Assembly (NCBI GenBank): GCA_040757115.1
Contig: JBFLYA010000064.1
Coordinates: 1-18,800 of the forward strand
Direction of reading: 5' to 3'
Length of the DNA: 18,800 nucleotides
From: a bacterium
GTDB taxonomy: Bacteria > UBA9089 > CG2-30-40-21 > SBAY01
The position numbers were made by a program, and so were the translations under genes. Shown piece by piece: positions 492 through 18,800 of the stretch; position 1 is the first letter of the stretch, and the number at the start of each line of letters is the position of its first letter. The notes beneath the pieces were generated by a model, which was not told the origin of the DNA, did no database searches, and saw nothing but the letters and a program-made list of their open reading frames with translations.

Positions 492-3400
492 TTATTTCAC
501 TATCCCAATTGCGTGTGTTTCAACCTTCATCCTACCACCAATTTGTGCTACCTTAATCTGATAGACATAGATACCATTTTCAGTAATCTCACCACCATTG
601 GTTCTTCCATCCCAGATAGCCAATACTCGACTTGCTCCTGCTGTAACTAATGTCCTTGGTAGTTCTCTTACCTCTTCACCGGTAGTATCGTAAATTTTAA
701 CGGTAATATACGAATCTCTACCTAAATCACCATGAAATTCGGTGAAATTACTACCACTTGGAGCAAATGGATTTTCAGTCAAAACTAAGTTAGCCAGAAT
801 AGTATCCGGGTCAACATCCCGACCTGCTATCCCCTGGTCTTTTATCCCAATGGCAAATTTACCTGTATGATTTATCTTCGCCATTACAGTCCTTGAAGCA
901 ATGTTAACTACACTGGGCAACATCATCCAATCATAACCATCGAAATAGTAAATTCGTAAGTCTTCTGCTTTAAGCGGTTGTTTCTGGAAATTGTTAATGT
1001 CACACTCTTCTACCAGACCATCCTGGTCAGCATCTGCATACCAGATAGTTAAAGTACCTTCCTTATTGAAAAGTTTCTTTGGAGTTATTTTATAAGCTGT
1101 GCCCGCAATACCAACAAATCCATTCGGGATTTCGGCTAAAGATGCTGGTTCAACCTTAAACTCAACATTCGCCCCTAAAGCACCGGCCTGGATATTAAGT
1201 GTAATATCATTTACCTCACCAAGAATGCCGCCGTTGGCACCAATTGTTTGTGTCTTCGTAAGTTGCTTATACACTACAGTAACTTGAATAGAAGCAGGAA
1301 CTGTACTCGTATTATTATTATCATCCACTACATTCAAATAGACTGTATATAGCCCTGGATTAGCGAAGGAATAGGTAATAGCAGAAGTAGTAGTTGCAAC
1401 TATCTGTGTTCCATTACCCGCAAATTCCCAAATATATGTTTTGATAATCCCATTATCCGTTGATTTGCTACCATCAAAGATAACTGCCGCATCTTCTTCA
1501 ACTGGCTTAGGATTTTGGTCAATTCCACTGTTGTTACAGTTAATATGAGGAACTGGAGTCTCTTTATCCTTCACAACTATACTTGTCTGGGTAGAAGCTT
1601 TATTTCCGGCATTATCCTGAACCTCTAATTTAACTGTATATGTCCCTATGTGGGTATATCTATGTGTACATTCCCAACCTGGTAAACTCAAGATATCTCC
1701 ATCGCCAAATGTCCAGGTATATGTTACTATCTTTATATTATCTGTTGAACTCCCAGCATTAAATGTTACTATTTGATTTTGTTCTGGAGTAATTGGACTA
1801 TAGGTGAAAACCGCTACTGGATTCTCATCATCTGTTATCGTTATCTCCCTGATACTGCTCTCTGATATATTTCCATCATCATCTCTTGCCTCAATGGAAT
1901 ATCTTATCTTCCCAACACTATTGTTATTCGCCGTAAATGTCAATGTCCCGGTCCAGGTTCCTACATTTGCTACCGTTGAGGTCGAATACTCATTCCCATC
2001 CTGATAGTAATGTAAGATTATACTGGTTACCATATTATTATCCGTTACGGTTACTGGCACAAATACAGGGTCTCCGGTCGTCCCTTTCCTATCTCCTAAC
2101 CCAGAAATTACTGGCTTCTCTGAATCTCCGACAACTACATTTTGACTCGTCAAACTACCATTTCTTGCTGCATCCTTAACCTCTAATGTTACCGTGTATG
2201 TCTTTTTCTCTGCAAAACGATGTGTCACTACCCTCCCTGTAGCAGTCGCTCCATCTCCAAATCCCCAGTAATAACTTACTACACCTATGTTATCATTCGA
2301 CCCACTCGCATCAAATGTCACATCCTCATCCTGCTTCGGTGAACTCGGATCATAACTAAATGCTGCTGTCGGATCATCATTGTCTGTTATCTTTATATAC
2401 CACTTACCGCTAACTAATGTATTACCATCATAATCACTTGCCTCTACATAATATTCTATATCACTTACACTCGTATCAGTCGCAGTAAATGTAAATGTCC
2501 AATTCCAATTCTTCCCACTTCCTACTGTAGTCGTCGAATACTCATTTCCATCCTGACTGTAATGTACCGTCACTGTCGCTACCTCATTATTGTCTGTTAC
2601 TGTCACTGGTACTGATACCATATCCCCTGTGTTTCCTTTCCTGTTCGCTAACCCTGATATTACAGGCTTCTCTGAATCTCCTACCACTACATCCTGACTT
2701 GTCGAACTACCATTCCCTGCTGCATCCTTAACCTCTAATGTTACCGTGTATGTCTTTTTCTCTGCAAAACGATGTGTCACTACCATCCCTGTAGCAGTCG
2801 CTCCATCTCCAAATCCCCAGTAATAACTTACTACACCTATGTTATCATTCGACCTACTCGCATCAAATGTCACATCCTCATCCTGCTTCGGTGAACTTGG
2901 ATCATAACTAAATGCCGGAGTAGGTGGCGTAACATCATTTACTGTAGCAAATGGGCTATTTGAAATATTACTTTCATTCCCAGCGGCATCTTCTGATATA
3001 ACAGCATAATAGAAAGTCTTCCCTTCATCTGATGCAATACCCACATCATCATATTCAGTAGCAGTAGTCGTCCCTCTAAAAACAGCCGTAGATGTAGCAT
3101 AAATAGGAGATGTCGCTCGATAAACGGTATAAAGTGTTACCCCTACATTATCTATTGGTTCTAACCATGTCAATTTCACCGTTCTACTTCCTGCAATTGG
3201 TTGAGCATCCAAAGTAGTAATTGCCTGCGGTGGTGTAGTATCAAGCACTGTTACAACAGTATTCACACCAATAGAAATAGCACTCTTATTACCTGTTCTA
3301 TCTACTGCTATAACTGCATAGGCATAGGTCTGTCCTACAGTAACAGCACTATCAATGTATTGGAAATGATAAGTATATGTCCCTGGTAAATCCTCAGTAA

Positions 3401-6400
3401 TATTAACCGGGTTATAATCTACTTGTGCTATTTGATTAACATCTATTAAATCAGCATCTACTAAGTTAGTTCCTTGCGCCTTGCGATAGACGAGGTAATA
3501 ATCCATTTCATCGTTATCTATCTTCTTATTCTTAGTAGTTTGTGTTCCCTGTAGTAAAACACTCGAATTAGTTGTCATAGTAGCATTAAATTTAGTCACA
3601 ACCGGTGGAGGAGTCATATCGTTTATGTATACTAATACTGGTGGTGAAAGTGGAGCTATATTCGGTCCTCTATCATCAGTATTTGGATATTCCACATCCC
3701 CATCTCCATCAATATCGCCAGGTATAGAATTAATATATTTATTTAGTCCTGGCTCAATAATAGTTGTATATGTGGCTCCTGGTTGAGACCCAGTTCCTGA
3801 AGCTACAAATGTATCATCATATCCTATTTGTGGGTATGTTTCAATTACCGAATCACCACCATCATATATAATCTCCTCATCCACCGCCGCTACCCAGAAC
3901 CAGTATCTACCTTCTACATTTACTAAATATCGCCATACAGTATATGTCCCACTTGGTACAAAATTAGCCACTGCATTCTTATCTGGTGCTGCAGGTGGTG
4001 GATTGTAAGGGTCATCATCATCTGATTTAGCGTATATTCGATATCCACAAATACTCCCTGAATTATCATAAGGTACTCCATTATCTGTCCAATCCAGCAC
4101 AACATCCTTTGTTCCCTGTGGCGACTTACCCTCAACATCTCTAATTTGCTCTGGTGGTGTCACATCTCGTATTCCGCCAGGTAACCATGGATCATATACA
4201 TTACCTGCCTCATCATATACAAATGTTACAATCCAGAACCCACCTGGTGGAAAGGTAGTAGGATCCCAATTGATAGAATAAGTCGCAACCGCAGGTGCAG
4301 GAGTTTGTGAAACAATATAACTACCAATATATATAGGATTAAGAGCTAAAAAGGCTGGGTCTGTCTCTGATGCATAGGGATAACCAGACGGACTATCATC
4401 TGGAATATTTTCCCCTGCATGTATAAAGTATGCCACTACCTTCCTTACCCCACTCATCCATAATGGGTTGGTAACTCCATCTCCTATAACACCTGATATA
4501 GTTCCAGGTTCTACTGGTACCATTGCACCCCAAGCAGGTGAACTAATATCCGTCCCCGTACCTTGCGTTTCAGGATTAGTTGTATCAATCCAAAGAGCCG
4601 ATTTAGTAGCTGCTGCTCCAGGAACGCTTAACATATCATACATGGTTATAGTTAAGGTATAAGTTCCTTCATTGGCAATAGTATTAGTTAAAGTTACTAC
4701 CTCAGATCTAATACAATCTGTTCCAGGAGATATATTGCCAATTTGAGTAAATGATCCAATTTCTCCTAATGGACCTGCAAAAGTAATTGTAAAAGAAGCT
4801 GGATTTTGCTCCGTATATGAAAACACAACCTCAATCTTCCCACCTTCACAAGCCCATGTCTTTGTCCCATAACCTGTTGGTGAAATAATAGTTACAATAG
4901 GTGGCTGGGCATCTATAATAAGTGCATCTTGTTGAGTACTACTACCTACATTACCAGGTATATCACTTAATTCTATTTTTAGTGAATATGTTACATTTGA
5001 TAAACCAGTAAATGGAAGTGTTACAGTACCTTGATGCACACCCGGTCCTCCAACTAAATTGGTAGTAGAAGTAGAAATTCCTGTACCTACAATCGTTATA
5101 GTAGCCATCTCTGGATTTGCCTCTGTATATGTAAAAACTACCTTTATTGAACCAGTTCCGGTACCGTAGGCAGGACTATTTGTAGTAGGTGAAATAATAG
5201 TTACCTCTGGTAGAATAGTATCCACTATTATAACCGCATCTGGGTGTGTAGTAACTGTACTATTATTTGCTTTATCTATCATTTCCACCTGTATTGAATA
5301 TGTACCATCAGATACACTATTAAGTTGAAGTGTAAGTGTGCCTTGCAAAGAGGTATTTGTCCCCGTGGGGGTTAAAGTAGTAGTAAGAGTAAATGCAGAT
5401 ACGGCTCCCGATGTACCTATTAGTCTTGCAGTAATAGTTCCTGGATGTATTTCTGTATATGTAAATATTACTTTAACCGTATCTGTTGCCATAGTATAGG
5501 TTACCGTAGCAGGAGAAATCATCTTTAATACTGGGTCTGTAGTATCTATTATAATCGCCTCTCTTTGAGTAGCAGTACCTAATTTATTCACTATATCTCT
5601 CATCTCTACCTTAACAGAATATGTTCCTTCACTTGCAGTATTATAATTAAATGTTGCACTGCCAATTCCAATTTCTTCTGCAACGGTTGTACTTATTGTT
5701 GTCTGTATGGTTCCATCAAATGTCGATATTATTACTACACTCGTTCCATAATTTTCTTCAGTAAACGAAAAAGTAATAGTAAATGTCCCATCAGCTTGGC
5801 CATAGAAAGGATTTCCATTTGTAGGATAGAGTAATGTCACATTTGGCTTAGTATCGTCTATAGTTAACGCACTCTCCTTATAAGCATTTCCTACATTCCC
5901 TGGTGTATCAACTGCAATTACCCCTACTGTATAAGTACCATCAAGAGTTCCATTACCAGCGGGAATACTTACCGTCCCACGACCTTTTAAAGTTGTCACA
6001 GTAGAAAATAGAGTAGTTGTAGCTATTCCAGAAATAGTTATAGTCGCATAAGCAAAAGGTGAGGCATCTTCATAATCAAAGAGAACTACTCTATTTACTG
6101 GAGTAGTAGTATAACTTCCAAGTGGATTAATTATTGTTACCTTTGGACCACTGTCATCTATAATTACTGCATCTGTCTGACTATTTGTACCAATCGCCCC
6201 TACCTTATCCTCTAATTCTATAAATAATGTGTAAGTCCCTTCTGCTAATCCATAAAACGGTAGAGTTAAAGAACCTTTTACTGGCTGTGATGGTATTGTT
6301 GTTGTTGCAGGATACACAGTTTGTGTAGAGTATTCCATGGTAGAAGTACCTATACCAATAGTAAGTGTCCCTGGATATTTCTCAGTAAAGCTAAATGTTA

Positions 6401-9400
6401 CAACAACTGAATCTGTTCCTTTTTTATATGCTTTATTTGAAGTAGTTGGATTAATTATCTCTACCTTTGGTCCAGTCATATCTACAACTACTACACCCCA
6501 GATAACAGGAGTTTGAGTCCCCAAACCGCATTTATCTGTCATTGTTCCTACTACAGAATATGTTCCTTCTGGAAGATCTTTAAAATCTAAACTAACTGTC
6601 CCTATGGTAGTCCCCGTTCCAGGTGGAAGATTAAAATTTAGCCCCCTAAATAGAATTGTAGAGGTACCTATACCTACACACGCTCCATAAGGATTGGCTT
6701 CAGTATATATAAATCTGGGTACAATAGTATCTGTCCCCAGAGCATAAGCTAAATTATTCTCTGTCGGATATACAATAGTCATCGCTGGCTTAGTATCGTC
6801 TATAGTTAACGCACTCTCCTTATAAGCATTTCCTACATTCCCTGGTGTATCAACTGCAATTACCCCTACTGTATAAGTACCATCAAGAGTTCCATTACCA
6901 GCGGGAATACTTACCGTCCCACGACCTTTTAAAGTTGTCACAGTAGAAAATAGAGTAGTTGTAGCTATTCCAGAAATAGTTATAGTCGCATAAGCAAAAG
7001 GTGAGGCATCTTCATAATCAAAGAGAACTACTCTATTTACTGGAGTAGTAGTATAACTTCCAAGTGGATTAATTATTGTTACCTTTGGACCACTGTCATC
7101 TATAATTACTGCATCTGTCTGACTATTTGTACCAATCGCCCCTACCTTATCCTCTAATTCTATAAATAATGTGTAAGTCCCTTCTGCTAATCCATAAAAC
7201 GGTAGAGTTAAAGAACCTTTTACTGGCTGTGATGGTATTGTTGTTGTTGCAGGATACACAGTTTGTGTAGAGTATTCCATGGTAGAAGTACCTATACCAA
7301 TAGTAAGTGTCCCTGGATATTTCTCAGTAAAGCTAAATGTTACAACAACTGAATCTGTTCCTTTTTTATATGCTTTATTTGAAGTAGTTGGATTAATTAT
7401 CTCTACCTTTGGTCCAGTCATATCTACAACTACTACACCCCAGATAACAGGAGTTTGAGTCCCCAAACCGCATTTATCTGTCATTGTTCCTACTACAGAA
7501 TATGTTCCTTCTGGAAGATCTTTAAAATCTAAACTAACTGTCCCTATGGTAGTCCCCGTTCCAGGTGGAAGATTAAAATTTAGCCCCCTAAATAGAATTG
7601 TAGAGGTACCTATACCTACACACGCTCCATAAGGATTGGCTTCAGTATATATAAATCTGGGTACAATAGTATCTGTCCCCAGAGCATAAGCTAAATTATA
7701 CTCTGTCGGATATACAATAGTCATCGCTGGCTCAGTATCGTCTATAGTTAGAGCACTCTCCTTATAAGCATTTCCTACATTTCCTAGTATATCAACTGCA
7801 ATTACCTCTACTGTATAAGTACCATCAAGAGTTCCATTACCAGCGGGAATACTTACCGTCCCACGACCTTTTAAAGTGGTCACAGTAGAAAACACCGTAG
7901 CTATTCCAGAAATAGTTATAGTCGCATAAGCAAAAGGTGAGGCATCTTCATAATCAAAGAGAACTACTCTATCTGCTGGAGTAGTTGTATAACTTCCCAG
8001 TGGATTAATTATTGTTACCTTTGGCCCACTGTCATCTATAATTACTGCATCTGCCTGACTATTTGTACCAATCACTCCTACCTTATCCTCTAATTCTATA
8101 AATAATGTGTAAGTTCCTTCTGCTAATCCATAAAACGGTAGAGTTAAAGAACCTTTTACAGGCTGTGATGGTATTGTTGTTGTTGCAGGATACACAGTTT
8201 GTGTAGAGTATTCCATGGTAGAAGTACCTATACCAATAGTAAGTGTCCCTGGATATTTCTCGGTAAAACTAAATTCCACAACAACTGAATCTGTACCTTT
8301 TTTATATGCTTTATTTGAAGTAGTTGGATTAATTATCTCTACCTCTGGCCCAGTCATATCTACAACTACTACACCCCAGATAACAGGAGTTTGAGTCCCC
8401 AAACCACATTTATCTGTCATTGTTCCTTTTACACTATATGTTCCCTCTTGGAGATTTGCAAAATCTAAACTAACAGTCCCTATAGTAGTTCCATCTCCGG
8501 GTGGAAGATTAATTGTGGTTCCAACACATACATAACCCGCTTGAGCAGATGTACCCATACCTACACTGGCTTGATAAGGATTAGCCTCAGTGTATGTAAA
8601 TCTCGGTACAATAATACCTGTCCCCGTAGCATAAGCCAAATTATACTCTGTCGGATATACAATAGTCATCGCTGGTGCAGTATCATCTATCGTTAATGCC
8701 TCATCTTTAGTATCCGTGTCTTTATTTCCTATCTTATCAGTTAAAGTCACTTCTACCGTATAGGTGCCATCAAGAGTACCACTACCGGCGGGTATAGTTA
8801 TTGTTCCCTGTCCCCAATTTCCATAAAATGTAGTAGTCGTTGTAGCAAATACAGTCTCAGTAGCTACTCCAGTAATAGTAATAGTTGCAAAATCAGGATT
8901 TTGCTCAGTATAAGTAAATATCACTACTCTATTATCAGGAGTAGTTGTATAACTACCAAGTGGATTAATTATTGTAACTTCTGGTGAGATATTATCTATA
9001 ATTAACGCATCTGTCTGACTATTTGTTCCAATCTTACCTACCTTATCCTGTAATTCTATAAATAATGAATAGGGACTATCTCCTAATCCCTCAAATGGTA
9101 GTGTTAAAGAGCCAATTGTTGGTATCTGTGCTGGTGTTGAGGTAGAAGGATAGACAGTTTGAGTAGAAAATGTGGTACCTTCTATACTAATCGTAAGTGT
9201 CCCTGGATATTTCTCAGTAAAGCTAAATGTTACAACAACTGAGTCTGTACCTTTCTTATACGCCTTATTTAAAGTAGTGGGATCAGTTATCTCTACTATT
9301 GGTGGAGTATCATCTAACACCACCACTCCCCAGATAATATCAGTCCATGTTCCCACCCCACATTTATCCATCATATATCCTCTTATGGAATATGTTCCTT

Positions 9401-12400
9401 CTGGAAGATTTTCAAAACCTAAACTAACTGTCCCTATAGTAGTCCCTGTTCCAGGAGGAAGATTAGTATTTGTCCCAGCAAACAGAGAACTAGATGTACC
9501 CATATATACCACCGCTATATCAGGATTAGCCTCAGTGTATGTAAATCTTACTATAATAATATCTGTATTAGTAGCATAAGCTAAATTATTCTCTGTCGGA
9601 TATACAATAGTCATTTGTGGAGGAGTATCATCTATAATCACTGCCTCCTCTTCAGTATCAGTAGTTGACCCTATGCTTTTATCACTCATCAGGACACTTA
9701 CAGTATATGTCCCTTCTTTGTTACCAGCATTAGTAAAGGTCAATGTATAAGTAGCCTGTGTAGGAACAGGAGCAGAAGGTATATTGGGAGTAGTAGTAGT
9801 AGTCTGTGTGAGCACTCCATATATTTCAGAGTTTATCGTTATTGTTAATGTAGCTGGATAAACTTCAGTATAGGTAAATACAACTGTAACTGTCCCTTCA
9901 CCTCTCTGATAGACTTTATCTTGTGTAGTAGGTGAAATAATATTTATCTGTGGTGGTTGATTATCAACTACTGTTACTATCGCAGGTGATGTAGCTGTAT
10001 TTCCTGCCTGGTCATATGCAATGCAAAATAAGTCTTTTATTCCATTACCAGTTGCATTCCATACAATAGTATGCGTTCCAAGTTTTGAAGGTGAACTATC
10101 TGTTCCACTGGTATCAAGCCCAGTATCTCCCCAGTAAAATTCTACCTTATCAATTCCAGTTTCATCATCCTGTGCAGTTGCTCTAATAGTTACGGTTCCA
10201 CCCACAGATATAGTTCCAGTTATATTTTCCTCATTTCCATTAGTAAGTACTGCCACAATAGTAATGGTACCTGGAACTGTATTATCTACCCAAACCGCGC
10301 CCAATTCCTCATCTTCATCAGTTTTTCCTACCCTGTCACTCATAACAACCTTCACATTATATGTACCATTGGCTGGGGTAGGAGGATCTGGAATATATAC
10401 TGAAGCAGTTCCATAACCATCTAATATTTGCACAACTGCACTCTCTGGAGTGCCCGTAGCACTACCAATCACAGTAGTTGTACCAATTGTAACAGTGATA
10501 GTAGCAGGATTATCTTCTACATAGGTAAAGGTAACAGTAATAGTTGCTGGAGTTTGGGTATAAATAGTCCCACCAAGTGGCGATGTAATATTTATCTCTG
10601 GAGCTTTATTATCTAAAGTTACTGTACCAGGAGCTGTTCCCGAATCACTTAAATTTACCTTATCAGTAACAGTAACTGAAACAGAATAAGTACCATCTGC
10701 ACCTGATACCTGAACATCTACTGTTTTTTGTCCATCTGGTGTAGTTAATGTTCCTTCAGCAGAACCAACTGTTCCAATAGTAATAGTATATGTTGCCGGA
10801 TTTAGCTCACTATAAGAAAAAGTAACGCTAACTGTACCACCATTTTCTCGATATACATCAACAGATGGTTCTGTTACCTCCACTTCAGGAGCTTTATTAT
10901 CTAAAACTACTAAGCCAGTGGCAGTACCATACCCTGCATGATTAAGTTTATCTGTTACCTTTACCTGAACTGAATATGTTCCATCTGTAGCTCCAGATAC
11001 CTGGATATTTACAGTTTTTGAACCCTCTGGAGTAGTCAAATTGCCTGTTTCACTTCCGATTTCAGTTGCACCCTGGTAAATTCGGACACTATAAGTATTT
11101 GGATTAGGCTCACTATATGTAAAATAAACAGTCACAGTACCGTTATTCTTACGATATACATTATTCGCCGGTTCATTCACTGTTACTACTGGCTCCCCAA
11201 CATCTACTACCACCGCACTATCCCATACAGATTCACCTTCATTATCCCCTTCATCAATGATAGTTACCTTAACAGAGTAAGTTCCATCAACTCCATTTAT
11301 TGTTACCGTACCCGTAATAGTCAACGTACCATCATTAGGAATTGTAAGAGTTGAGGTAAAAGAGCCAATACTATTTATTCCCATCTCATCATTATATATA
11401 TTTATGATATATTTATCTGGATTTAATTCATTGTAGGTAAAGCTAACAGTTATTGTCCCAGGTGACTCGGTATAGGTAGGTGTAACATTTGTAATATTAA
11501 CTTCAGGAGGTGTCCAATCTCCTAAGATGACGAGGTCATTAGATATAGGCGACTTCTCTACTCCATCCGACGGGTCAACTATTATAGTTGCAAAAGAATA
11601 CCATAATCCTGAAGTAACACTTCCTTCATAAGAAGTATCAGTGGTAGTTCCAATAAGATAATTACCTGTATTTATAAATTCTTGGGTTAAAGTACCAGGC
11701 AATTGTTTACGATGTATCTCAAAATAATAACCTATCCCTAATGTATTTGTAGCCGCAGACCAGTTTAAAGTAATCGAACCCACCCCTCCAGAACCTGTCC
11801 CGACACCTGTCAGGTCAAGAATAGAAACTATACCTTTTAAATCAATAGTAGCCTGGCCAGCACCAGAGATCTCAGAAACATTACCTGTTGGTGTCCCTGG
11901 TGTCCCTAATGGATAATAAGTAGTAGTATTAGTAGTCCAGACACCAGCAGTATCTACGGTTATAACTGCGTAGGCATATTGAGTTGCCTTTTCTGGTACA
12001 CCCATGTTAGAATTTACCCAGCTATAATATTGCCAATTAGTATCACGAATAGTACCTGTGCCATTAGCATCATAACATGTAAATTGCTGAAGAGCAGAAT
12101 TATTATGAGGATTTATTGCTTTAACTACCGCAAGCAAATTATTATTATTTATCTCACCATTTACCAATTTTCCTGCTTTTGCCTTTCGATATATCATATA
12201 GTAGAGTTGAGAACCATTAGGAGTAGCTGTAGCCTTAAATGGTGGGTCTAAAGGAGCTGTCCATTGAAGTTGTATTGACTTTTGTTGAGCTTGCGAAGTA
12301 ATAATAAGATCATCAATTGACTCGGGTATCGTCCGATCAAGATACCCAAGGGTAATATTAGACCACCCTCCTCCTCCTTCCTCTCTTAATCTGTACCGGT

Positions 12401-12749
12401 AATAAGCTCCTTCTTCACCACTCTCTCCAGTAGCTGTGTCGTATATACTAATAGTACCGGTATAGGTAGCGTAAACCGTAGTTACTGTTGCTGCTGCATC
12501 GGTATTCCAATTTGTTAGATCAATATTTATCGCCCTTTTCAATGTATATGTTGCCCCAGTAGTCACATCCCACTTCAGATACATCTTCCCCCCAGATCTT
12601 AATTCCTGTGTAAGCTGAGGAGCGGCATATACCTTTTCCAACAGCCCAAAACTTAAGCCCATGGTTAATAAAAGCACCCAAGAAAAGTTTATTTTTATTA
12701 GTTTTTTCCTCATTTTACTCCCTTCCTTTATTAAATTTTTAATACTCAT
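492..12749 (-). CDS. Giant secreted Ig/FN3/PKD repeat surface protein with FlgD-type C-terminal domain
   Basis: This 4085-residue protein has a Sec signal peptide (basic stretch MRKKLIK, hydrophobic WVLLLTMGLSFGLL, probable cleavage near VYA-AP, residues 41-43). By sequence reading, residues about 44-410 are FN3-like. About 412-2724 is a run of roughly 22 Ig-like modules with the pattern PxVxIxxP...VxFTYTExNP...GTYSVxVxMTDKxG. Another Ig-like unit runs to about 2863, then three FN3-like domains to about 3274. Next come two PKD plus unknown-domain pairs (3276-3640; PKD marker GFGDGATATG), two more PKD-like domains (3641-3824), a ZU5-like region (3825-3970), and a FlgD-type Ig end (3988-4085; VKIYDTTGEEV, IWDGRTNGG, NGIYVYQI). 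Acidic Ca-binding-like loops lie near 3012 (DIDGDGD) and 3906 (DADQDG). Start 12749 has a strong AAGGAGG site. A second ATG at 12713, also preceded by GGAAGGGAG, would give a shorter signal peptide. Likely a surface filament or adhesin; ligand unknown. Confidence 0.93.
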   Translation of the reverse strand: MSIKNLIKEGSKMRKKLIKINFSWVLLLTMGLSFGLLEKVYAAPQLTQELRSGGKMYLKWDVTTGATYTLKRAINIDLTNWNTDAAATVTTVYATYTGTISIYDTATGESGEEGAYYRYRLREEGGGGWSNITLGYLDRTIPESIDDLIITSQAQQKSIQLQWTAPLDPPFKATATPNGSQLYYMIYRKAKAGKLVNGEINNNNLLAVVKAINPHNNSALQQFTCYDANGTGTIRDTNWQYYSWVNSNMGVPEKATQYAYAVITVDTAGVWTTNTTTYYPLGTPGTPTGNVSEISGAGQATIDLKGIVSILDLTGVGTGSGGVGSITLNWSAATNTLGIGYYFEIHRKQLPGTLTQEFINTGNYLIGTTTDTSYEGSVTSGLWYSFATIIVDPSDGVEKSPISNDLVILGDWTPPEVNITNVTPTYTESPGTITVSFTYNELNPDKYIINIYNDEMGINSIGSFTSTLTIPNDGTLTITGTVTINGVDGTYSVKVTIIDEGDNEGESVWDSAVVVDVGEPVVTVNEPANNVYRKNNGTVTVYFTYSEPNPNTYSVRIYQGATEIGSETGNLTTPEGSKTVNIQVSGATDGTYSVQVKVTDKLNHAGYGTATGLVVLDNKAPEVEVTEPSVDVYRENGGTVSVTFSYSELNPATYTITIGTVGSAEGTLTTPDGQKTVDVQVSGADGTYSVSVTVTDKVNLSDSGTAPGTVTLDNKAPEINITSPLGGTIYTQTPATITVTFTYVEDNPATITVTIGTTTVIGSATGTPESAVVQILDGYGTASVYIPDPPTPANGTYNVKVVMSDRVGKTDEDEELGAVWVDNTVPGTITIVAVLTNGNEENITGTISVGGTVTIRATAQDDETGIDKVEFYWGDTGLDTSGTDSSPSKLGTHTIVWNATGNGIKDLFCIAYDQAGNTATSPAIVTVVDNQPPQINIISPTTQDKVYQRGEGTVTVVFTYTEVYPATLTITINSEIYGVLTQTTTTTPNIPSAPVPTQATYTLTFTNAGNKEGTYTVSVLMSDKSIGSTTDTEEEAVIIDDTPPQMTIVYPTENNLAYATNTDIIIVRFTYTEANPDIAVVYMGTSSSLFAGTNTNLPPGTGTTIGTVSLGFENLPEGTYSIRGYMMDKCGVGTWTDIIWGVVVLDDTPPIVEITDPTTLNKAYKKGTDSVVVTFSFTEKYPGTLTISIEGTTFSTQTVYPSTSTPAQIPTIGSLTLPFEGLGDSPYSLFIELQDKVGKIGTNSQTDALIIDNISPEVTIINPLGSYTTTPDNRVVIFTYTEQNPDFATITITGVATETVFATTTTTFYGNWGQGTITIPAGSGTLDGTYTVEVTLTDKIGNKDTDTKDEALTIDDTAPAMTIVYPTEYNLAYATGTGIIVPRFTYTEANPYQASVGMGTSAQAGYVCVGTTINLPPGDGTTIGTVSLDFANLQEGTYSVKGTMTDKCGLGTQTPVIWGVVVVDMTGPEVEIINPTTSNKAYKKGTDSVVVEFSFTEKYPGTLTIGIGTSTMEYSTQTVYPATTTIPSQPVKGSLTLPFYGLAEGTYTLFIELEDKVGVIGTNSQADAVIIDDSGPKVTIINPLGSYTTTPADRVVLFDYEDASPFAYATITISGIATVFSTVTTLKGRGTVSIPAGNGTLDGTYTVEVIAVDILGNVGNAYKESALTIDDTEPAMTIVYPTEYNLAYALGTDTIVPRFIYTEANPYGACVGIGTSTILFRGLNFNLPPGTGTTIGTVSLDFKDLPEGTYSVVGTMTDKCGLGTQTPVIWGVVVVDMTGPKVEIINPTTSNKAYKKGTDSVVVTFSFTEKYPGTLTIGIGTSTMEYSTQTVYPATTTIPSQPVKGSLTLPFYGLAEGTYTLFIELEDKVGAIGTNSQTDAVIIDDSGPKVTIINPLGSYTTTPVNRVVLFDYEDASPFAYATITISGIATTTLFSTVTTLKGRGTVSIPAGNGTLDGTYTVGVIAVDTPGNVGNAYKESALTIDDTKPAMTIVYPTENNLAYALGTDTIVPRFIYTEANPYGACVGIGTSTILFRGLNFNLPPGTGTTIGTVSLDFKDLPEGTYSVVGTMTDKCGLGTQTPVIWGVVVVDMTGPKVEIINPTTSNKAYKKGTDSVVVTFSFTEKYPGTLTIGIGTSTMEYSTQTVYPATTTIPSQPVKGSLTLPFYGLAEGTYTLFIELEDKVGAIGTNSQTDAVIIDDSGPKVTIINPLGSYTTTPVNRVVLFDYEDASPFAYATITISGIATTTLFSTVTTLKGRGTVSIPAGNGTLDGTYTVGVIAVDTPGNVGNAYKESALTIDDTKPNVTLLYPTNGNPFYGQADGTFTITFSFTEENYGTSVVIISTFDGTIQTTISTTVAEEIGIGSATFNYNTASEGTYSVKVEMRDIVNKLGTATQREAIIIDTTDPVLKMISPATVTYTMATDTVKVIFTYTEIHPGTITARLIGTSGAVSAFTLTTTLTPTGTNTSLQGTLTLQLNSVSDGTYSIQVEMIDKANNSTVTTHPDAVIIVDTILPEVTIISPTTNSPAYGTGTGSIKVVFTYTEANPEMATITIVGTGISTSTTNLVGGPGVHQGTVTLPFTGLSNVTYSLKIELSDIPGNVGSSTQQDALIIDAQPPIVTIISPTGYGTKTWACEGGKIEVVFSYTEQNPASFTITFAGPLGEIGSFTQIGNISPGTDCIRSEVVTLTNTIANEGTYTLTITMYDMLSVPGAAATKSALWIDTTNPETQGTGTDISSPAWGAMVPVEPGTISGVIGDGVTNPLWMSGVRKVVAYFIHAGENIPDDSPSGYPYASETDPAFLALNPIYIGSYIVSQTPAPAVATYSINWDPTTFPPGGFWIVTFVYDEAGNVYDPWLPGGIRDVTPPEQIRDVEGKSPQGTKDVVLDWTDNGVPYDNSGSICGYRIYAKSDDDDPYNPPPAAPDKNAVANFVPSGTYTVWRYLVNVEGRYWFWVAAVDEEIIYDGGDSVIETYPQIGYDDTFVASGTGSQPGATYTTIIEPGLNKYINSIPGDIDGDGDVEYPNTDDRGPNIAPLSPPVLVYINDMTPPPVVTKFNATMTTNSSVLLQGTQTTKNKKIDNDEMDYYLVYRKAQGTNLVDADLIDVNQIAQVDYNPVNITEDLPGTYTYHFQYIDSAVTVGQTYAYAVIAVDRTGNKSAISIGVNTVVTVLDTTPPQAITTLDAQPIAGSRTVKLTWLEPIDNVGVTLYTVYRATSPIYATSTAVFRGTTTATEYDDVGIASDEGKTFYYAVISEDAAGNESNISNSPFATVNDVTPPTPAFSYDPSSPKQDEDVTFDASRSNDNIGVVSYYWGFGDGATATGMVVTHRFAEKKTYTVTLEVKDAAGNGSSTSQDVVVGDSEKPVISGLANRKGNTGDMVSVPVTVTDNNEVATVTVHYSQDGNEYSTTTVGSGKNWNWTFTFTATDTSVSDIEYYVEASDYDGNTLVSGKWYIKITDNDDPTAAFSYDPSSPKQDEDVTFDASGSNDNIGVVSYYWGFGDGATATGRVVTHRFAEKKTYTVTLEVKDAARNGSLTSQNVVVGDSEKPVISGLGDRKGTTGDPVFVPVTVTDNNMVTSIILHYYQDGNEYSTSTVANVGTWTGTLTFTANNNSVGKIRYSIEARDDDGNISESSIREITITDDENPVAVFTYSPITPEQNQIVTFNAGSSTDNIKIVTYTWTFGDGDILSLPGWECTHRYTHIGTYTVKLEVQDNAGNKASTQTSIVVKDKETPVPHINCNNSGIDQNPKPVEEDAAVIFDGSKSTDNGIIKTYIWEFAGNGTQIVATTTSAITYSFANPGLYTVYLNVVDDNNNTSTVPASIQVTVVYKQLTKTQTIGANGGILGEVNDITLNIQAGALGANVEFKVEPASLAEIPNGFVGIAGTAYKITPKKLFNKEGTLTIWYADADQDGLVEECDINNFQKQPLKAEDLRIYYFDGYDWMMLPSVVNIASRTVMAKINHTGKFAIGIKDQGIAGRDVDPDTILANLVLTENPFAPSGSNFTEFHGDLGRDSYITVKIYDTTGEEVRELPRTLVTAGASRVLAIWDGRTNGGEITENGIYVYQIKVAQIGGRMKVETHAIGIVK
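2166..2915 (-). repeat. 552-bp duplicated PKD plus partner-domain unit
   Basis: The segments 2166-2363 and 2718-2915 are 552 bp (184 codons) apart and nearly identical. I count three base differences over 198 bp: two change residues (Arg/Met after GDGATATG and Gly/Arg in the DAS-SND segment) and one is silent. Each unit encodes a PKD domain (FSYDPSSPKQDEDVTFDAS) followed by a beta-rich domain beginning SGL.(N/D)RKG. Outside the PKD part the copies are clearly more diverged. This points to recent local gene conversion rather than duplication of the whole unit. Confidence 0.8.
5845..7728 (-). repeat. Two near-identical 942-bp tandem copies (three Ig modules each)
   Basis: Positions 5845-6786 and 6787-7728 are head-to-tail copies of exactly 942 bp (314 codons). 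On line-by-line comparison I find a single mismatch, 6758 (T) versus 7700 (A), which changes Asn to Tyr in the PTE(N/Y)NLAY motif. The copies encode residues about 1675-1988 and 1989-2302. Each contains three different Ig modules starting AMTIVYPTE, KVEIINPTTSNKAYKKGTD and KVTIINPLGSYTTTP. Such identity within a coding array implies very recent unequal recombination, or an assembly effect. Confidence 0.92.
7729..9618 (-). repeat. Two older, diverged copies of the three-Ig supermodule
   Basis: The same alpha-beta-gamma order of Ig modules continues upstream in two further units of about 945 bp, 7729-8673 and 8674-9618 (residues about 1046-1674). The nearer unit is very similar to the young copies but carries scattered substitutions and indels, for example an extra QAGYVCVG segment and a shorter SGIATVFST. 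The farther unit is substantially diverged and keeps FTYTEQNP where the younger gamma modules read FDYEDASP. Divergence increases toward the protein's N-terminus, so the array appears to have grown toward the C-terminus. Confidence 0.8.
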
Positions 12750-14847: not shown

Positions 14848-15239
14848 GTAACCGTTCAGGGATATAGCCACAGAGTCACAGAGAACACAGAGGGAATATA
14901 TAACTACGAATGAACACGAATAATAAAAAGATTTGGTAAGCATTCAGGTGGTGTAACAAAAGGAGATGTGGAGATTAAGGAGATAGGGAGATATTATTAA
15001 AAAAATTGAAATTAGTAGAAACTAATAGAAATTTATGGAAATTTGTTGTTTTCCACAATCAATTTCTACCTATTTCTATAAATTTCAATCTATTTCTATT
15101 ATCTTATCTCCATATCGCCCTTATCTCCTTATCCCCTTTCTTACACTTTTGATATATAGCCTGAACGGTTACAAAAAAAGATATTTTCCTCTCTGCGAAC
15201 TCTTGCGTCTCTGCGGTAAAAGATTACCTGAACGGTTAC
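14848..15239. mobile_element. Palindromic CACAGAG-type repeat element, split by an inner element
   Basis: The outer ends are perfect inverted repeats GTAACCGTTCAGG (14848-14860) and CCTGAACGGTTAC (15227-15239). Left-arm sequence (CCACAGAGTCACAGAGAAC) corresponds to the complement of the right arm (CCGCAGAGACGCAAGAGTT), so the element is a long imperfect palindrome of about 155 bp once the inner insertion 14936-15172 is removed. No gene is present. GACTAA occurs just outside both ends but is not flush with them, so the target duplication is unproven. It occupies almost the whole 433-bp gap between the FecR-domain gene and the barrel gene. Confidence 0.6.
14936..15172. mobile_element. Inner palindromic element, copy 1 (237 bp)
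   Basis: The ends are GTAAGCATTCAGG (14936-14948) and CCTGAACGGTTAC (15160-15172), imperfect inverted repeats. Inside, GTGTAACAAAAGGAGATGTG is mirrored by CTTATCCCCTTTCTTACAC, and the centre is a further palindrome of TAGAAATTTATGGAAATTTG type. The same element is found again at 18346-18800, same orientation, with high identity. The flanks AAAAAGATTTG and AAAAAAAGATATT are similar but not an exact duplication. Any frame across it is repeat-derived. Confidence 0.65.
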
Positions 15240-16652: not shown

Positions 16653-16852
16653 GGTGGTGTCTGAAAATAACGCTAATAGTGAAATCTATTCAGATTTGGT
16701 GTAAAAAAGGGGATAAGGAGATAAAGGGAGATATGGAGATTATTCATTGTAATTTGCAAAATTTTAGAATGAATTTATCTCCTAATCTCCATAATCCCCA
16801 TATCTCCTTTTCTTACACTATTTCAACCTTTATGCTAGATTAAGACACCACC
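16653..16852. mobile_element. 200-bp miniature element with 8-bp target duplication
   Basis: The terminal inverted repeats are GGTGGTGTCTGA (16653-16664) and TAAGACACCACC (16841-16852), one mismatch in 12. Flush on both sides is the exact 8-bp direct repeat CAAAATAA (16645-16652 and 16853-16860), diagnostic of insertion. The interior is an imperfect palindrome: TGGTGTAAAAAAGGGGATAA mirrored by CATATCTCCTTTTCTTACAC. It has no coding capacity and is presumably moved by a transposase encoded elsewhere. It lies between the promoter at 16894-16922 and the FecR-domain start codon. Confidence 0.85.
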
Positions 16853-18334: not shown

Positions 18335-18418
18335 ATTACCTAATTGTAAGCGTTCAGGTGGTGTAACAAAAGGAGATGTGGAGATTAAGGAGATAGGGAG
18401 ATATTATTAAAAAAATTG

Positions 18419-18647
18419 GTAACTATTCACCATTCACAATTCACCATTCACAATTTCTTCCCTAAATTTCCTTAATAATGGTGAATGGTGAATTGTCAAT
18501 TGTGAATTGTGAATTATCACTCTTCACGGTGTCAAGCAAACTTGGCCCAAGAATTCGATGCACCGCTATAGCGCATCCAATGACTCTATTCGATAATTCA
18601 TCAAATTTCACTTCGTGTTCTCCGTCCCCTTCGTGGTGAATAGTTAC
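18419..18647. mobile_element. Nested 229-bp miniature element with 14-bp TIR and 8-bp target duplication
   Basis: Perfect 14-bp inverted ends, GTAACTATTCACCA (18419-18432) and TGGTGAATAGTTAC (18634-18647), are flanked flush by the exact 8-bp repeat AAAAATTG (18411-18418 and 18648-18655). The uninterrupted copy at 14936-15172 shows the empty site. The left half is a hairpin of CACCATTCACAATT-type units and their complements. The right half contains a GxxExxY gene fragment and a CACGAAG-type stretch. No transposase is encoded. Confidence 0.9.
18525..18608 (-). pseudogene. GxxExxY-family gene fragment carried by the nested element
   Basis: Twenty-eight codons read KFDELSNRVIGCAIAVHRIL followed by GPSLLDTV, matching the N-terminal signature of GxxExxY proteins (usually LSxxVIGAAIEVHRxLGPGLLESVYE, over 120 residues). 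The frame then enters repeat-derived sequence and stops at 18462, so the conserved core ending ExxY is missing and the normally conserved Glu before VHR is Ala. Upstream codons come from the CACGAAG-type repeat. It is a captured gene remnant, not a functional gene. Confidence 0.75.
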
Positions 18648-18800
18648 AAAAATTGAAATTAATAGAAACTTATAGAAATTTGTTGTTTTCCACAATCAAT
18701 TTCTACCTATTTCTATAAATTTCAATCTATTTCTATTATCTTATCTCCATATCACTCTTATCTCCTTATCCCCTTTCTTACACTTTTGATATATAGCCTG

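Follow-up and report, generated by a model that had tools for sequence, protein, structure and literature searches.

A small transposon relic made from pieces of one-gene mobile units

IS66 elements and the intervening sequences of rRNA genes which carry an S23 gene are known systems (PMC12898284, PMC4990558). ISDge4, an experimentally active element of the ISBst12 group, features the ends GTAACTGCTCAGCA/GTGACTACTCAGCA and an 8-bp repeat (PMC12898284). The intervening sequence of Coxiella comprises 428 nt with an S23 gene, i.e., a gene for a four-helix-bundle (4HB) protein, between terminal inverted repeats of 28 bp, and it is regarded as a selfish element (PMC4990558); a mobile-element origin of such sequences was proposed by Ralph and McClelland in 1993, at least according to the citation in PMC4990558. 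Furthermore, heptamer repeats were reported without an owner (PMC4692102, PMC4679880), those of Xanthomonas often occurring as convergent inverted pairs, with 70-75 per genome (PMC4692102).

Many uncultured genomes contain GxxExxY and 4HB genes in multiple copies, but only three of 5.4 million papers searched name GxxExxY or its profiles. No publication linking either gene to matched inverted arrays or to filled and empty sites was found, with preprints and most subscription journals lying outside the search. The analysis of an 18,800-nucleotide stretch of bacterial DNA (the window), which represents contig C64 of the 4.3-Mb genome G000 (462 contigs), supplies the anatomy, the boundaries and direct movement evidence for these genes.

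The insert in the window and its IS66-type ends

Positions 18419-18647 of the window hold a non-autonomous element of 229 bp whose 14-bp inverted ends are perfect. It starts with GTAACTATTCACCA (left terminal inverted repeat, 18419-18432, plus strand), closes with the exact reverse complement of these letters (right terminal inverted repeat, 18634-18647, minus strand) and is bordered by an exact 8-bp target duplication, AAAAATTG, at 18411-18418 and 18648-18655. The interrupted host element (18346-18800, truncated by the contig end) features IS66-type ends and inverted GGAGATA arrays, and its uninterrupted copy of 237 bp is located at 14936-15172, with more copies bearing exact 8-bp duplications elsewhere. 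Without the insert and one duplication, the host element shows 93% identity to this copy over 228 columns, the differences being a few substitutions and otherwise solely a 10-bp gap next to the insertion site. The original prediction of a fully resolved insertion is thereby confirmed, with the refinement that the 14-bp end belongs to the subfamily of this insert and that the end common to all these elements consists of the 11 bp GTAACYRTTCA.

With at most one mismatch, 223 copies of the 14-bp end were counted in the genome (4.3 Mb) compared to three of the reversed control, and the insert itself is represented by about 22 near-complete copies and many partial ones. In a census of approximately 1.35 Mb of non-redundant sequence out of the 4.3 Mb, exact 8-bp duplications accompanied 52 of 378 convergent end pairs vs. 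none of 1,890 offset controls, so that the genome-wide recurrence of the ends together with duplications, which had been proposed as a check, is given. Thus, the insertion is confirmed to be real and not due to chance. The same element family was detected in the sister species G031 (81 matches).

The cargo had been regarded as the 5' part of a GxxExxY gene, which applies to the right half of the insert only. This half contains the first codons of a GxxExxY unit (FDELSNRVIGCAIAVHRILGPSLLDT, 18525-18606, minus strand) and a CACGAAG-type repeat array (CACCACGAAGGGGACGGAGAACACGAAG, 18610-18638, minus strand), which is interpreted as the 5' array of the parent unit and is similar to arrays flanking complete genes. 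The left half (18419-18518) is a hairpin formed by inverted arrays of ATTCACCATTCACAA-type repeats with about 95% identity to DNA adjoining the 4HB gene of locus L169 (contig C126). The expected GxxExxY profile match was not met by the window itself, its 77-aa open reading frame showing no Pfam or NCBIfam match at E 0.001; less-deleted siblings with the same ends do match and exceed the TIGR04256 cut-off (C22:2735 with 58 bits, C18:9960 with 54 bits). By sequence comparison, the remnant is homologous to these siblings, and the insert is chimeric, joining parts of a GxxExxY unit and a 4HB unit. The insertion is a small transposon relic made from pieces of one-gene mobile units.

Further gene-less elements occur in the window. 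The copy at 14936-15172 is enclosed by an outer element (14848-15239) with GTAACCGTTCAGG ends and CACAGAG-type arrays, and an inverted GGAGATA array without IS66-type ends is located at 16699-16818. The 237-bp host element consists of arrays only, both of which match those of GGAGATA-type GxxExxY units (L068); on this similarity, it looks like a gene-less derivative of such units. Besides, the window encodes a 4,085-aa secreted-type protein with bacterial Ig-like and PKD domains (492-12749, minus strand) and a coiled-coil repeat open reading frame with FEKIDERFEKMEGR repeats running off the contig start (3-302, minus strand).

A transposase gene with the same ends, the second structure proposed as a check, was found in the genome: an IS66-type TnpC gene (PF03050) with two internal stops lies between GTAACCGTTCAGG ends in a unit of 1,563 bp (L091). 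Two intact relatives from the same order (L334 and L335, 468 and 522 aa) feature the ends GTAACCGTTCACA and GTAACTACTCAGG, and the terminal repeat of the insert is assigned to the IS66/ISBst12 type by comparison with these three transposase units. An intact IS66-type transposase was not found in the G000 assembly, which contains five degenerate PF03050 matches; such a gene may have been lost, may have escaped assembly or may be silent. The insert meets the features of IS66/ISBst12 elements by its inverted ends, starting with GTAA as at the transposase gene, and by the 8-bp target duplication, and empty sites with a single copy of the duplicated 8 bp were seen for two related units (L167, L160). 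The insert is best read, from its sequence features, as a non-autonomous IS66/ISBst12-type element. Since its ends match those of the IS66/ISBst12-type transposase gene of the same genome, mobilization in trans by an IS66-type enzyme is likely, an inference resting on the shared ends. Such a transposase, acting on GTAACYRTTCA ends, would have put the insert into another element of this kind; the insertion and its 8-bp duplication are observed, the identity of the transposase is inferred.

Complete units and their matched inverted arrays

The GxxExxY profile TIGR04256 yielded 68 matches in G000, about 20 of them full length. At two loci (L061, L062), a complete GxxExxY gene stands alone in a 459-bp unit with extended ends (GTAACTATTCACCGCAGAGACGCAGAGG or near it), i.e., long copies with the full gene and the same kind of ends as foreseen. 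The gene of L061 reaches 161.9 bits with TIGR04256 and 157 bits with PF13366 and hence meets the profile match. No target duplication was found at L061 and L062; the L062 site of G031 holds a 292-bp internally deleted form, and forms of this type are bordered by exact duplications at three sites (L081, L085, L086). The genes of L061 and L062 differ by 8 synonymous and 3 non-synonymous codons, too few for a test. The idea of a larger parental element holds insofar as units with the complete gene exist, but none was found to contain both gene and transposase, which are separate, and the possibility that GxxExxY is the remnant of one large transposon was consequently rejected.

A further 27 matches in G000 were obtained with the 4HB profile TIGR02436. 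An intact 4HB gene (PF05635) forms a 484-bp unit at L160 with a duplicated AATAATTC, and the empty site in G031 contains one copy; an empty site was likewise found for the 546-bp unit of L167. Other ends cap cargo in this genus as well, including a different MITE type with ACCCTACAACG ends and a TA target (L165, empty in G031), CGACCTGTGAAATAG and CTAGTGCTCTGTCGC. A 727-bp repeated unit with CTAGTGCTCTGTCGC ends and a 4HB gene was observed at L173 and L174, CTAG being a possible target. Another 4HB unit, with GGGACTC arrays (L156, C42), is apparently located inside a CRISPR array, with GTAGGAAAATAAGACCTGATGAATAAGGGATTGCGAC repeats on its left flank and a partial repeat on the right. A 1,942-bp unit (L130:4176-6117) features related ends, an exact AAAAAATC duplication, an Rpn gene (PF04754, Transposase_31) and nested smaller ends. 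Rpn as a third regular cargo was rejected: the other six Rpn loci inspected in G000 and the sister species lack such flanking end pairs, which is why the L130 unit is regarded as probably composite.

Regarding the GxxExxY protein, the residues E23, Y26, D63, E73, and K75 are invariant in 50 sequences, as would be expected for a PD-(D/E)XK nuclease. The predicted model (pLDDT 96) resembles Cas4 SSO0001 as the nearest solved fold (Z 9.4), most other entries of the fold search being nuclease-fold proteins with Z 6-8; a solved relative was not detected by sequence. Model and fold search support a nuclease fold only and no function.

Nearly all complete GxxExxY and 4HB genes of G000 are located between inverted short tandem repeats of 7-10 nt, which vary by locus and are identical on both sides of the gene. 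The own 3' array was the best partner of the 5' array at all eight GxxExxY and 10 of 12 4HB loci of G000 as well as at 18 of 27 4HB loci of other phyla. Using a fixed score threshold and same-geometry intervals within the same loci as controls, matched arrays were detected at 74 of 106 loci vs. 2 of 611 control intervals (GxxExxY, 55 of 79 vs. 2 of 395; 4HB, 19 of 27 vs. 0 of 216), leaving about 30% of the loci without detectable matched arrays. The observed pairing was reached by none of 20,000 permutations in three sets; in the fourth, comprising the 4HB loci of other phyla, the observed mean amounted to 38.1 and permuted means never rose above 25.7. The general impression that CACGAAG-type repeats lie near GxxExxY genes is hence borne out and extended, in that such repeats delimit one-gene units in many phyla as inverted arrays of matching sequence.

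The TTCACCACAGAGACACAGAG type predominates among the arrays of 80 GxxExxY loci, which represent more than 12 phyla and include a Methanophagales archaeon; no obvious target duplications were seen at the array ends. Moreover, 4HB genes were present in 26 of 30 GxxExxY-bearing genomes. GxxExxY was not matched in phages and occurred in only eight plasmid records. Co-evolution of protein and array was not supported, array sequence showing no overall tracking of protein similarity (Mantel r 0.02) and arrays being common only to the few pairs with at least 62% protein identity; among these, arrays are shared by a cyanobacterium, a deltaproteobacterium and an acidobacterium, and by an archaeon with G000.

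Filled and empty sites and the identity of the mobilizer

Movement of units without insertion sequence-type caps is directly visible on plasmids of Nostocales, where a 423-bp 4HB unit is present in three (Trichormus variabilis ATCC 29413, strain 0441 and Scytonema NIES-4073) and the site is empty in six, with 98-99% identity. The empty site reads AAAAAGTAATTAACAAATAAATATG and the filled site AAAAAGTAAT, AAATCAGAATTCAGAAGTCAG...gene...CTGACTCCTGAGTTCTTCTTT, GTAATTAACAAAT, so the arrays are the only boundaries, insertion sequence ends are absent and the 5 bp GTAAT are duplicated. A gene-less array remnant occupies the same site on a Brasilonema plasmid. A GxxExxY unit of Verrucomicrobia separates nuoK from nuoL, a junction which is uninterrupted in many genomes of the family and holds gene-less inverted arrays of four other repeats in others. 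At the left border of this unit, 12 positions recur from the beginning of nuoL, one of them mismatched, and this inexact copy suggests, as an inference from the sequence, a longer, imperfect duplication of possibly 12 bp or more. Presence and absence were also found between cas6 and cas4 (Anabaena sp. 90 vs. Dolichospermum) and at nrd (Nostoc vs. Calothrix), the junctions being too diverged or rearranged to be read exactly. The filled and empty pairs show recent insertion and hence mobility of the one-gene units; the mobilizing enzyme is not shown. As the duplication varies by site (5 bp on the plasmids, possibly at least 12 bp at nuoL), the evidence does not establish one defined chemistry of insertion.

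Two further placements were observed. Two distant cyanobacteria have plasmids whose type I-D CRISPR operons contain a 4HB gene, placed between cas6 and cas4 (L400:1471-1839, L445:1177-1536), related plasmids being without it. In two Planctomycetes, a GxxExxY unit (L250) and a 4HB unit (L315) seemingly sit at one and the same junction, which is located upstream of an acetate kinase-like gene.

The most convincing explanation, held with high though not full confidence, comprises two layers, an insert of the non-autonomous IS66 type and a cargo derived from mobile one-gene units. In the second layer, IS66-type ends would carry fragments of units in which a GxxExxY (PD-(D/E)XK nuclease fold) or 4HB (S23/23S_rRNA_IVP) gene is placed between inverted arrays of a short, unit-specific tandem repeat matched on both sides, such units being capped by insertion sequence-type ends in this genus and uncapped elsewhere. 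The arrays are inferred to act as recognition ends and the encoded protein to help move or spread its own unit, and gene-less arrays may be moved in trans, by analogy with the mobilization of REPINs that is ascribed to RAYT transposases. A broader proposal can be put forward only tentatively, at somewhat less than even chance, namely that GxxExxY and 4HB genes define self-spreading elements of one gene each, a widespread class with unit-specific inverted arrays of the heptamer type as ends. In these elements, the protein would recognize its own array, a copying mechanism would keep both ends alike, gene-less arrays would be REPIN-like satellites, and rRNA intervening sequences as well as the heptamer repeats of cyanobacteria and Xanthomonas would be members or relics. 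The identity of the mobilizing enzyme is the weakest step: the duplication is not of constant length, and a common architecture is found for two unrelated proteins, the latter arguing that at most one of them, or neither, need be the mobilizer.

Both genes could instead be passive passengers captured by chance by the MITE ends of several insertion sequence families, with the arrays as ordinary subterminal repeats. The variety of capping ends in this genus (IS66-type with 8-bp duplication, ACCCTACAACG with TA target, CGACCTGTGAAATAG, CTAGTGCTCTGTCGC) would agree with this, but clean empty sites exist for units without a recognizable insertion sequence end, on the plasmids and between nuoK and nuoL, many phyla have matched arrays without such ends, and chance capture would not time and again select these two genes together with arrays that are matched and unit-specific, which renders this explanation unlikely. 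Still less probable is a spread at the RNA level, in which the arrays would form an RNA stem, units would propagate like 23S rRNA intervening sequences, perhaps via reverse transcription, and DNA insertion would be a by-product. The Coxiella sequence indeed has the size and anatomy of the 423-bp plasmid unit; nevertheless, the units sit in ordinary intergenic DNA, the GxxExxY fold is DNA-nuclease-like and no reverse transcriptase is encoded inside or adjoining the inspected units. Regulatory or structural repeats arising by independent slippage around genes, without being unit ends, are hardly credible even though the heptamers of Xanthomonas and Nostoc were interpreted as G-quadruplex elements (PMC4692102) and TAACTGA as possibly regulatory (PMC4679880). 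Slippage can neither generate inverted matching sides across a gene nor remove the gene and both arrays together at one clean site, and is thus contradicted by the filled and empty pairs.

Comparison with known systems

Under the two-layer account, two long-standing puzzles gain a source that can be put to the test, namely where the rRNA intervening sequences with S23 genes come from and how the unexplained intergenic heptamer repeats arose in several phyla. The tiny size of the encoded proteins makes a reconstituted mobility assay feasible. Heptamer arrays are shared with the repeats of cyanobacteria, Xanthomonas (GGGAATC) and Beggiatoaceae (TAACTGA). However, no 4HB or S23 gene is mentioned in PMC4692102 and PMC4679880, and the proposed link includes no Xanthomonas data. 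The ISBst12 group, e.g., ISDge4, is approached by the end GTAACYRTTCA, which is near GTAACTGCTCAGC of ISDge4, by the 8-bp duplication and by the presence, in this genome and its order, of a single-ORF transposase bounded by these ends, whereas elements of the insert type hold repeat arrays and gene remnants instead of a transposase, of which no intact version was detected in the assembly.

The 23S rRNA intervening sequences of Coxiella and Leptospira likewise contain one 4HB gene between inverted repeats, span about 420-430 bp and occur sporadically, and the feature of an S23/4HB gene (PF05635) with inverted terminal repeats is met by the present units. In contrast, the location in an rRNA helix is not met, the annotated units examined lying between protein genes and outside rRNA genes; moreover, their inverted repeats are unit-specific tandem arrays, and a second gene family, GxxExxY, follows the same plan. 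The RAYT-REPIN system resembles the units in combining one gene beside its specific inverted repeats with dispersed intergenic gene-less inverted pairs (PMC3116915), and gene-flanking inverted repeats also occur without a gene here, e.g., at 16699-16818 of the window. Unlike the HUH Y1 transposases of that system, the products are GxxExxY (PF13366) or 4HB (PF05635) proteins, the repeats are tandem arrays, and the units are multicopy per genome, whereas RAYTs are single copy.
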